A stretch of DNA of 38,446 nt from Anaerolinea sp. Lineage in GTDB: Bacteria > Chloroflexota > Anaerolineae > UBA4142. Of this stretch, positions 5,139 through 38,089 are shown piece after piece; the first letter of the stretch is position 1, and each line of letters begins with the position of its first letter. A program made the position numbers and the translations under genes. The notes beneath the pieces were generated by a model, which saw only the letters and a program-made list of their open reading frames with translations, did not search any database and had not been told where the DNA came from. The stretch spans positions 1 to 38,446 of the forward strand of contig DYLA01000006.1 of NCBI GenBank assembly GCA_020722265.1. Direction: 5' to 3'.

Positions 5139-7697
5139 TCACAGCACACTCACCGGATCCACATCCACGCGCCAACCGAGCGGCAACGCGAGATCGGCGA
5201 TGAGGACGTGCGGCGCGAGCCCGCGCACAATGATTTGATAGCGATACTCGCCGCGTACGCGCCGAAAGAACGCGGGCACGGGTCCGATCAAATCGAGCGC
5301 GGGCAAGCCGCGCTGCGCAAGGCGCGTTTGCAACACCCCACGCACGCGCGCCGATTCTTGTTGGGCGCGCGTTTCGTTCGTGTGATGATAGATTAGCCGA
5401 ATCAGCCGATTGAACGGCGGATAGCCCTGCTCGCGGCGAAACGCGATCTCCCGGGCGTAGAACGCGCCGTAATCGTGTACGGACGCGGCGACGATCGCGT
5501 AATGCTCGGGGTTGTACGTTTGCACGATCACTTTGCCGCCCAGTGGACTACGCCCGGCGCGACCCGCGACTTGAGTGAGCAGTTGGAACGTTCGCTCGCC
5601 CGCGCGAAAATCGGGCAAGTTGAGCGCGGTGTCCGCGCTGACGACACCAACGAGCGTGACGAATGGCAAATCGAGTCCCTTGGCGATCATCTGCGTCCCA
5701 ATCAAAATGTCGGCTTGGCGCGCGATGAATTTTTCCAGAATCGCCTCGTGCGCGTCCTTGCCGCGCGTCACATCCCAATCCCAGCGCAGCGTGCGTGCGG
5801 TCGGAAAGCGCGCGCGAATTTCTGCCTCCACTTTTTCCGTGCCAATCCCAAAGTAGCGGATGCGCGCGCTGCCGCACAGCGGGCATTTCGTCGGCACGCG
5901 GTCGCGACGATTGCAGTGATGACACACCAGTTGCTCACCGCTGCCGTGATACGTCATTGGGTTCTCGCAGCGGCGACACTTGAAGACATAGCCGCAATCG
6001 CGACACAAAATAAACGTCGCCGTGCCGCGCCGATTCAAGAACAAAATCACTTGCTCGCGCGCCGCCAACACGCGCGCCATCTCGCGCTGGAGCGCGCGCG
6101 AAAACATCGAACGATTCCCCGCTTTCAGTTCAGCGCGCATGTCAACGATTTCGACGGGTGGCAGTTCGAGGTAGGGCGCATCCGCACCCACGGGGGCTGA
6201 CTCCTGACCGCTGACCGCTGGCTGCTGACCTCTGTGCTCTGACCTCTGTTCTCTGACCTCTGCCCGATGTCCCATCACTCGCTTGGGCAATTCCAACAAC
6301 ACCAACTCGCCGCGCGTCGCGCGATAGTACGTCTCCACATCGGGCGTCGCGTCTCCCAGGATCACGACGGCGCCCGCGCGTCGCGCCAGTTCCAACGCGA
6401 CCTCGCGCGCGTGATAGCGCGGCGATTCGGCTTGCTTGTACGACGGATCGTGTTCCTCGTCCAGCGCGATCAAGCCCAGTTGTGGGAGCGGTGCGAAGAG
6501 CGCGGAGCGCGCGCCGATCACCACATCCACCAACCCATCGCGGCAGCGCCGCCACGTATCGTACCGTTCGCCGATGCTCAAGCGTGAGTGAATGACGGCG
6601 ATGCGTTCAAAGCGCGCGCCAAAGCGGCGAATCGTTTGCGGCGTGAGCGAAATTTCGGGGACGAGGACGATGCCTTGTTTGCCTTGCGCGATGATTTCCG
6701 CGAGCGCGCGCATGTAGATTTCCGTTTTGCCGCTTCCCGTGACGCCGTGGAGTAAGAAGGCGGCGGGTTTCACCGTTTCGGGCTGCTGGTTGGGCGGGCT
6801 TGGAACCTGAAGACTGGAAAGTATCTCATTCCACGCGCGCGCTTGTCCCTCCGTCAACTGGGGCGGTGCGGCGGTCTCGAACGCGCGTCCTGCCAGCGAA
6901 TCGCGCCACGTCTCGTGCGCTTCCAGCGCGACGACACCCGCCGCCTCCAATTTTTGCAAATCGGCGCGCGTGCCGCCCGTTTCCGCGTACACCGCGCTGA
7001 CCCAGACCGCGTTCGCTTCGCGGCGCAGAAATTCGACGATGGCGGTGTAGCGCGGCGCGGCGCGCGATTGCGCGAGGGCGTCGGTAAGTTGCGCGCGGAG
7101 GAGACGAACTGTTTGGATGCGCTTGGGCTTGGCTTGCGCGGGCGTGATAACGGCGCGTTTGACGATGATGCCGCGCCGCGCCAGCGGTTCGATGGCGGCG
7201 TGAAGTTCGCGCGGGAGGGCGCGCACTTTGGTTTCGCCCGCACGCGCGAGGAATTCGACGAGCGCGGTTTGTTTTTCGGTGAGATTGTCGCGTGGCGCGT
7301 TCGGCGCGAGTGCGAGCAGGATTTCGGTTTGCTGTTCGACGCCAGGGGGTAGCATCAAGGCGAGTGCGTCGTGGAGTGGGCAGAGGTACGTGCGCGCGAT
7401 CCAGCGCGCCAGATCGAGGTGCAGCGGGGAGAGAAACGGGCGCACCTCCACGATCGCTTCGATGTCCTTGGTCTGTTCGACGGGTGACGTATCGCTGAAC
7501 GCGATGACGATGCCCTGCAATCGCCGCGCGCCGAACGGCACCCATACCAGTTGTCCCAGCGCGATGGAATCGGCGAGGGGCGCGGGAATTGCGTAGGTGA
7601 ACGCGCGTTCGCGCAGCGATTCCGCCGCGGCGCGCTCTGCCTCGCTGGGTTTGCCGATCGTCAACGGCGTGTTGACGACGATTTGTGCGTATTTCAT
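5139..7697 (-). CDS. priA: Primosomal protein N' (replication restart helicase PriA)
   Basis: Walker A 'GVTGSGKTEIY', 'DEEHDPSYKQAESPRYHAREVA', Zn-binding 'CRDCGYVFKCRRCENPMTYH...LVCHHCNRRDRVPTKCPLCGS', 'GTEKVEAEI', 'VAGRAGRS'. Start MKYAQIV (7695-7697) preferred to the ORF start at 7709. Confidence 0.96.
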   Translation of the reverse strand: MKYAQIVVNTPLTIGKPSEAERAAAESLRERAFTYAIPAPLADSIALGQLVWVPFGARRLQGIVIAFSDTSPVEQTKDIEAIVEVRPFLSPLHLDLARWIARTYLCPLHDALALMLPPGVEQQTEILLALAPNAPRDNLTEKQTALVEFLARAGETKVRALPRELHAAIEPLARRGIIVKRAVITPAQAKPKRIQTVRLLRAQLTDALAQSRAAPRYTAIVEFLRREANAVWVSAVYAETGGTRADLQKLEAAGVVALEAHETWRDSLAGRAFETAAPPQLTEGQARAWNEILSSLQVPSPPNQQPETVKPAAFLLHGVTGSGKTEIYMRALAEIIAQGKQGIVLVPEISLTPQTIRRFGARFERIAVIHSRLSIGERYDTWRRCRDGLVDVVIGARSALFAPLPQLGLIALDEEHDPSYKQAESPRYHAREVALELARRAGAVVILGDATPDVETYYRATRGELVLLELPKRVMGHRAEVREQRSEHRGQQPAVSGQESAPVGADAPYLELPPVEIVDMRAELKAGNRSMFSRALQREMARVLAAREQVILFLNRRGTATFILCRDCGYVFKCRRCENPMTYHGSGEQLVCHHCNRRDRVPTKCPLCGSARIRYFGIGTEKVEAEIRARFPTARTLRWDWDVTRGKDAHEAILEKFIARQADILIGTQMIAKGLDLPFVTLVGVVSADTALNLPDFRAGERTFQLLTQVAGRAGRSPLGGKVIVQTYNPEHYAIVAASVHDYGAFYAREIAFRREQGYPPFNRLIRLIYHHTNETRAQQESARVRGVLQTRLAQRGLPALDLIGPVPAFFRRVRGEYRYQIIVRGLAPHVLIADLALPLGWRVDVDPVSVL
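6197..6266. repeat. Ten degenerate heptamers (CTGACCT-type) in frame inside priA
   Basis: CTGACTC CTGACCG CTGACCG CTGGCTG CTGACCT CTGTGCT CTGACCT CTGTTCT CTGACCT CTGCCCG, contiguous. Confidence 0.95.
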
Positions 7698-7710
7698 CAG
7701 TGAGACCAAA

Positions 7711-7745
7711 GACGAAGGACGAACGCGGGTCGTTCGTCCTTCGTC
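7711..7745. repeat. Perfect 15-bp inverted repeat made of heptamer-like units, priA/memo gap
   Basis: GACGAAGGACGAACG-CGGGT-CGTTCGTCCTTCGTC. Confidence 0.95.
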
Positions 7746-7758
7746 GTCGTTTGCTTTT

Positions 7759-16477: not shown

Positions 16478-16478
16478 A

Positions 16479-16528
16479 GGGGTCAGGGGTCAGGGGTCAG
16501 GGATCGGTAAACTGGCCGCTGACCCCTG
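16479..16528. repeat. Inverted pair of heptamer tandem repeats in the oppC/oppD gap
   Basis: GGGGTCA x3 + GGGATCG (16479-16506), then CCGCTGACCCCTGAATCC (16516-16533 region) as the reverse-complement arm. Confidence 0.9.
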
Positions 16529-16532
16529 AATC

Positions 16533-17465: not shown

Positions 17466-17480
17466 TGATACCCCATCGAT

Positions 17481-17567
17481 GAGCCAATTAACCAATGAGC
17501 CAAACTCTTTGCAAGAGTACGCCTAGCGCACTGAATTTGGTTCATTGGCTCATTGGTACATTGGTTC
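17481..17567. repeat. Inverted pair of octamer tandem repeats in the oppB/oppC gap
   Basis: Left GAGCCAAT TAACCAAT GAGCCAAA (17481-17504); right TTTGGTTC ATTGGCTC ATTGGTAC ATTGGTTC (17536-17567). Confidence 0.92.
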
Positions 17568-17574
17568 ATCTGTT

Positions 17575-18592: not shown

Positions 18593-18818
18593 CCCAATGA
18601 GCCAAACGCTGTGCTCAATGAGCCCATTTGCCAATGTGCCAATGAGCCAAATCATTTTGTCACACCGCTTTCCCGCCAGCGCTTGAAGTGAGCGTAAAGC
18701 CAGCGGACGTGCCTTCCGCATACTTGACAGTTTGACCGCCTCACAAAGGCTTCTAGGGGAATCAGTATGTCATTTGGCTCATTGGCGAATTGGTTTATCG
18801 GTTCATTGGCTCATTGTC
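18593..18818. repeat. Octamer repeats as two inverted arms around a roughly 115-bp core, SBP/oppB gap
   Basis: Left CCAATGAGCCAAAC...CCAATGTGCCAATGAGCCAAAT (18593-18653); right ATTTGGCTCATTGGCGAATTGGTTTATCGGTTCATTGGCTCATTG (about 18772-18816). Confidence 0.85.
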
Positions 18819-37969: not shown

Positions 37970-37980
37970 TAGTGAGCGGT

Positions 37981-38043
37981 AGTCAGTAATCAGTAGTCAG
38001 TAATCAGTAGTCAGTAATCAGTAGTCAGTAATCAGTAATCAGT
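37981..38043. repeat. Heptamer-pair tandem repeat in the ffh/rpsP gap
   Basis: (AGTCAGTAATCAGT) x4 (37981-38036) + AATCAGT, with flanking degenerate copies to about 38058. Confidence 0.95.
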
Positions 38044-38089
38044 ATGCGGTAATCAGTGGGCAGATGGCTCACTACGGAAAAGGAGTATA

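Follow-up and report, generated by a model that had tools for sequence, protein, structure and literature searches.

How does a repeat of seven nucleotides, a unit that is not a multiple of three, come to lie in frame inside the gene for a replication restart helicase? The window (the whole stretch of Anaerolinea sp. DNA that was analysed, 38,446 nt) encodes PriA on the minus strand at 5139..7709, with 856 aa if read from the TTG at 7709. The assignment comes from the NCBIfam PriA equivalog (838.5 bits, cut-off 813) and from a protein structure match. The AlphaFold2 model (mean pLDDT 86.8, pTM 0.86, from a 23-sequence alignment) matches the solved PriA structures 4nl4, 6dgd and 8fak. The ATG at 7697 (MKYAQIVV) is a likelier start than the TTG. 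Just upstream of the priA start, at 7707..7749 on the minus strand, GGACGAA heptamers and their inverted copies form a near-perfect hairpin (folding z -3.23) that ends about 10 nt before the likely ATG. A similar hairpin precedes priA in the relative G013.

The heptamer array in priA

The array lies at 6197..6266. Read on the plus strand, it is made of ten CTG-initial heptamers placed back to back (in order CTGACTC, CTGACCG, CTGACCG, CTGGCTG, CTGACCT, CTGTGCT, CTGACCT, CTGTTCT, CTGACCT and CTGCCCG), and TRF reports a period of 7 with 10.1 copies at 6196-6266. The minus strand of the array (GGTCAGN/CTGACCN) encodes AEVREQRSEHRGQQPAVSGQES within an uninterrupted PriA. These units correspond to residues 482-505 in the linker between helicase lobes 1 and 2, after the GDATP segment of lobe 1 and before the LPPVEIVDMR strand, which runs on into lobe 2. 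The PriA equivalog domains and fold are intact around the array, as judged from the profile match and the model. The pLDDT reaches its minimum in the linker, with about 63 for residues 481-490, 46 for 491-500 and 45 for 501-510; few residues outside the N-terminus score lower. The original prediction of ten contiguous, translated CTGNNNN heptamers is therefore borne out by TRF, the intact 856-aa PriA and the shuffles described below. Its suggestion that the repeat is tolerated in a loop also holds, in the form of a predicted disordered loop (pLDDT about 45 at 491-510, against the mean of 86.8).

Within priA the lag-7 score reaches 41/56. The maximum did not exceed 31 in 500 synonymous-codon shuffles, which keep the protein, and the same ceiling applied to 500 codon-order shuffles. 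Because synonymous shuffles stay far below the real score, the priA repeat is a feature of the DNA, and neither chance nor a by-product of the peptide. The coding strand is the stop-free strand: TGA occurs in the CTGACCT strand, whereas all frames of the GGTCAGA strand are open. The imperfect units on the minus strand are AGAACAG, AGCACAG and CAGCCAG. The window linker aligns gap-free to the pattern of the wider class (HRRRIEEQR..YR vs HRAEVREQRSEHR), and two imperfect units coincide with the kept E and H of that pattern; AGAACAG and AGCACAG restore the E and H/Y of the class-wide EEQR..[YH]R. This is suggestive only, and reads as if a few linker residues had been kept by selection while the remainder was heptamerised.

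Linker length and heptamer turnover at the PriA loops

The original prediction set this linker against the much shorter connection of E. coli PriA. The alignments agree, in that both E. coli and Klebsiella PriA have far fewer residues between the two aligned blocks that flank the linker (phmmer). We searched 60 relatives with the window PriA protein. The span from GDATP to VDMR is 74 aa in the window, G006, G009, G010, G011 and G012, and also in three members of other families (G041, G047 and G048). Between the conserved KR and the ELPP strand, the linker measures 38 aa in the window and in G010, G011, G012, G041 and G048. There is no array in the linkers of G010, G041 and G048. The linker of G006, likewise put at 38 aa, holds two copies, and those of G009, G011 and G012 carry other heptamers. 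As the linker is equally long with or without an array, the array of the window did not lengthen it. The prediction that a repeat was inserted or expanded there, lengthening a short connection, is thus not supported by the 38-aa linkers of the three array-free relatives, and the unchanged length is contrary to what simple slippage expansion predicts. To judge from these alignments, the comparison with E. coli is misleading, because an equally long linker exists in many relatives of the same class. The original prediction had named as its own counter-case that all relatives would share a conserved sequence of equal length and without repeats at this place. The length was indeed found in several of them, but the conserved sequence was not.

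Period-7 PriA linkers (p<=0.005) were found in 9/12 members of the window's family (f1) vs 1/17 members elsewhere, with about seven unrelated heptamer types within the family. The units are GGTCAGA in the window, GGTCAGC in G005 and G013, GCAATTG in G012, ATTACCA in G011, AAATTCA with inverted copies in G007, CCGAAAT in G008, ACAAATG in G009 and an ATCAGAA-like unit in G002. A single event, as originally proposed, does not account for so many different heptamers. In the PriA tree, the window and G013 are sisters (100/100) and group with G005 and G012. The presence of GGTCAG in the window, G013 and G005 but GCAATTG in G012, a member of the same clade, indicates turnover of the heptamer. The GGTCAG arrays may descend from one array in this clade that was replaced in G012, and the remaining linker heptamers look separate in origin.

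A second PriA loop, which precedes Walker A (site 1; 6765..6812 on the minus strand), is not clearly periodic in the window. In most members of the family, however, heptamer arrays or hairpins occupy it, and there it is lengthened to 19-49 aa vs mostly 18-22 aa elsewhere (one member of another family has 35 aa). The heptamer arms at site 1 often pair in RNA folding, and several members have hairpins like those in Mfd.

Arrays in Mfd, other genes and intergenic DNA

The Mfd loop between EG[FW] and LLTDAE is period-7 in 9/10 tested members of family f1 and in 4/5 members of a sister family (f2). It forms a hairpin in 7/10 members of f1 (z -3.5 to -6.6) and 4/5 members of f2 (z -4.4 to -6.3), each with its own heptamer. 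The hairpin is absent from the Mfd loop of seven more distant members of the class, none of which reach z -2.3, and from that of the window's own genome (z +0.8). The Mfd reading frame of G004 (C57:496-2436) contains one in-frame TAA. Unrelated heptamers recur at two PriA loops and one Mfd loop, and these loops appear to be recurrent landing sites at which the heptamer sequence turns over between species.

The search for similar arrays in other coding sequences, which the original prediction recommended, thus found them in the second PriA loop and in Mfd, and it extended to dozens of other genes (an in-frame array in 43/1395 called genes). These include DnaE, leucyl-tRNA synthetase, an argininosuccinate-lyase-type enzyme, a diaminopimelate/ornithine-type decarboxylase, an ABC exporter fusion, GH31 and GH38 enzymes, and GAF-domain and mannosyltransferase-like membrane proteins. 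One gene for a PMT_2 mannosyltransferase-like membrane protein (G012, L173:3833-5890) carries four separate in-frame arrays with differing sequences.

Our census covered sampled stretches, 1.56 Mb from 11 draft genomes of the family, with genes called by a home-made caller and hairpins judged structurally by RNA folding alone. There are 130 arrays per Mb at lag 7 and 32 per Mb at lag 8, so octamers are a minor second class and the second commonest period in the family. In counts, lag 7 gave 202 arrays, lags 5 and 13 gave none, and lags 10-11 gave at most 7 (<=4 per Mb). Other named Chloroflexota loci have 17 lag-7 arrays per Mb, and no arrays were found in 821 kb of Firmicutes-dominated control loci. 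The best named Chloroflexota matches to the family have about 45-57% identity. Between genes, lag-7 arrays of the family reach 513 per Mb. Arrays of this kind were also set at about 458 per Mb between genes vs 44 per Mb inside genes, which supports the claim that this kind of repeat is normally intergenic. Nearly all heptamer classes differ, as none occurs more than 3 times among 96 arrays. Inverted copies lie beside 20/96 arrays vs 11/384 controls (p=2e-8), and stops are absent from the sense strand of 51/60 coding arrays vs 107/176 intergenic strands (p=4e-4). Taken together, these results point to a process of fixed step with little sequence preference, filtered inside genes by reading frame, stops and the tolerance of loops. 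Hairpin formation as a general property of the arrays was rejected, since random segments fold better, on average, than arrays together with their flanks.

Intergenic arrays are also present in the window (TRF). An AGGGGTC heptamer array is followed by its inverted copy (CTGACCCCTGA) at 16478..16529 on the plus strand, and 11 units of GTAATCA/GTAGTCA lie at 37979..38057, also on the plus strand. The latter array is directly upstream of the ribosome-binding site of rpsP, a gene named from its N-terminal sequence. Octamer arrays at 17479-17569 (ATGAGCCA/TTGGTTCA) and 18610-18816 (TGTGCCAA/TTGGCTCA) form inverted pairs between ABC-transporter genes.

Origin of the arrays

We consider it probable that the priA repeat is a translated heptanucleotide array in a disordered linker that already existed, and that it was produced by a period-locked, nearly sequence-agnostic process of the family and passed by a filter that acts on genes. 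The process would form tandem arrays strongly locked to a period of 7 nt, and secondarily 8 nt, often with inverted copies alongside. Arrays would accumulate between genes, and those in genes would persist only if the frame is kept, the sense strand is free of stops and the peptide lies in a loop. As originally predicted, gain or loss of a single unit would shift the frame of priA. Seven not being a multiple of three, we infer that the array could not have been built one unit at a time with priA working at each step, so that the events must alter the length in steps of 21 nt or replace sequence with no change of length. Multi-unit slippage during replication or template switching, probably seeded by local codons, would fit best; template switching would also yield the inverted copies. 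The constant length at the linker (PriA site 2) would favour overwriting. The peptide that the array encodes is probably near-neutral. A stronger version, which we regard as doubtful, holds that the process writes arbitrary repeats of 7 (and 8) nt with their inverted partners and overwrites existing sequence length-neutrally, and that the PriA and Mfd loops keep an inverted-heptamer architecture while the sequence is replaced wholesale between species.

The alternatives make different demands on this evidence. If the arms of the heptamers pair in mRNA or DNA and the structure is kept by selection despite changes of sequence, e.g., as a pause in translation or transcription between domains, then folding of the Mfd loop in 7/10 members of the family and 4/5 of the sister family, with a different heptamer each time, is what one would look for, and several members are similar at PriA site 1. 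However, the array of the window folds worse than its shuffles (z +2.66), as arrays do on average, the Mfd loop of the same genome lacks a hairpin, and template switching gives the same inverted arms with no need of selection. We think a selected hairpin unlikely as the explanation. One historical insertion of a mobile repeat into priA of the window's lineage, tolerated as an extra loop, would agree with the GGTCAG heptamers common to the window, its sister G013 and G005, for which descent from one array is plausible. It is nevertheless a quite unlikely reading: the window's genome has few further copies of the exact heptamer, and the equal length of array-free linkers together with the unrelated heptamers at the same site in other genera largely refute it.

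A phase-variation switch, with priA turned on or off as 7-nt units slip, draws on the fact that any change by a single unit frameshifts the gene. The units are degenerate (41/56 lag-7 identity), which lowers slippage, none of the PriA reading frames matched in relatives contains a stop, and the linker is stable at 38 aa in several lineages; a switch of this kind is very improbable. The genome is a draft of 209 contigs, which leaves room for an assembly artefact. This possibility is hardly credible, as are chance and repetition at the protein level, because the synonymous shuffles never come close to the real score and independent assemblies carry arrays at the same site. We regard all three as already refuted. 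The translated array from a period-locked process thus remains our preferred reading.

Comparison with known repeats and significance

Degenerate heptamers are familiar from the cyanobacterial STRR sequences, which often occur as paired stem arms and extend the stems of rnpB and of the trnL intron. Those arrays lie in non-coding RNAs, whereas the family arrays considered here are translated; both are degenerate heptamers that often form stem arms. The array in the window is also a heptanucleotide long simple sequence repeat, with 7-nt tandem units beyond chance length. In many prokaryotes no class of long simple repeat is commoner than the heptanucleotides, which have been proposed to arise by slippage of a polymerase whose contact length is 7 nt; in coding sequence, the units of such repeats are mostly divisible by 3 (Mrazek et al., 2007, through the summary in PMC4679880). 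Tandem 7-nt units are the common ground, but the arrays seen here have a non-triplet unit and turn up in frame, time and again, in particular loops of essential enzymes. The TAACTGA repeats of Beggiatoaceae and cyanobacteria are mostly intergenic, with some in ORFs, mainly at protein peripheries (PMC4679880). They resemble the present arrays in being mostly intergenic heptamer arrays with some in ORFs. They consist of one conserved heptamer found mainly upstream of start codons, whereas here the heptamer sequence is free and the loops are internal; the TAACTGA unit is absent from the priA array, whose units are CTGACCN-like.

Rickettsia palindromic elements, as outlined in PMC2229807, are families of related sequence of 105-146 bp in protein-coding genes and intergenic DNA. 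On that outline they are alike in being palindromic, in-frame repeat DNA tolerated in conserved enzymes and also found between genes. They share sequence, however, whereas here only the 7-nt period is common, sometimes with inverted arms. A palindromic stem-loop was found in the Mfd and PriA site 1 arrays of relatives; the priA array of the window does not fold into one by the z value given above. Nor does it belong to a dispersed sequence family: the heptamer has a single weak second match in the window's genome, and a pattern search there returned only the array itself. In the papers that we searched, no description combined a period that is not a multiple of three with free choice of sequence, set positions in loops of essential enzymes and turnover between sister species. 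Heptanucleotide repeats are already known; their recurrence at fixed essential-enzyme loops with turnover of sequence appears to be new.

One would expect genes to be purged of non-triplet repeats, yet enzymes of replication, repair and translation repeatedly carry them here in the same loops, with sequences that differ between sister species. It is difficult to see how an important gene could gain such an array one slipped unit at a time and stay viable at every step, and the family offers a natural series for how 7-nt arrays arise without loss of frame and why 7 nt is special. It also raises the question of what share of the disordered loops of a proteome stems from a mutational process rather than from selection. 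In lineages of this kind, neither the sequence nor the length of a linker is a good guide to function, and both should be read with caution. The best explanation of what we see in these sequences would be that, in this lineage, tolerant loops of proteins are rewritten time and again with seven-base repeats.
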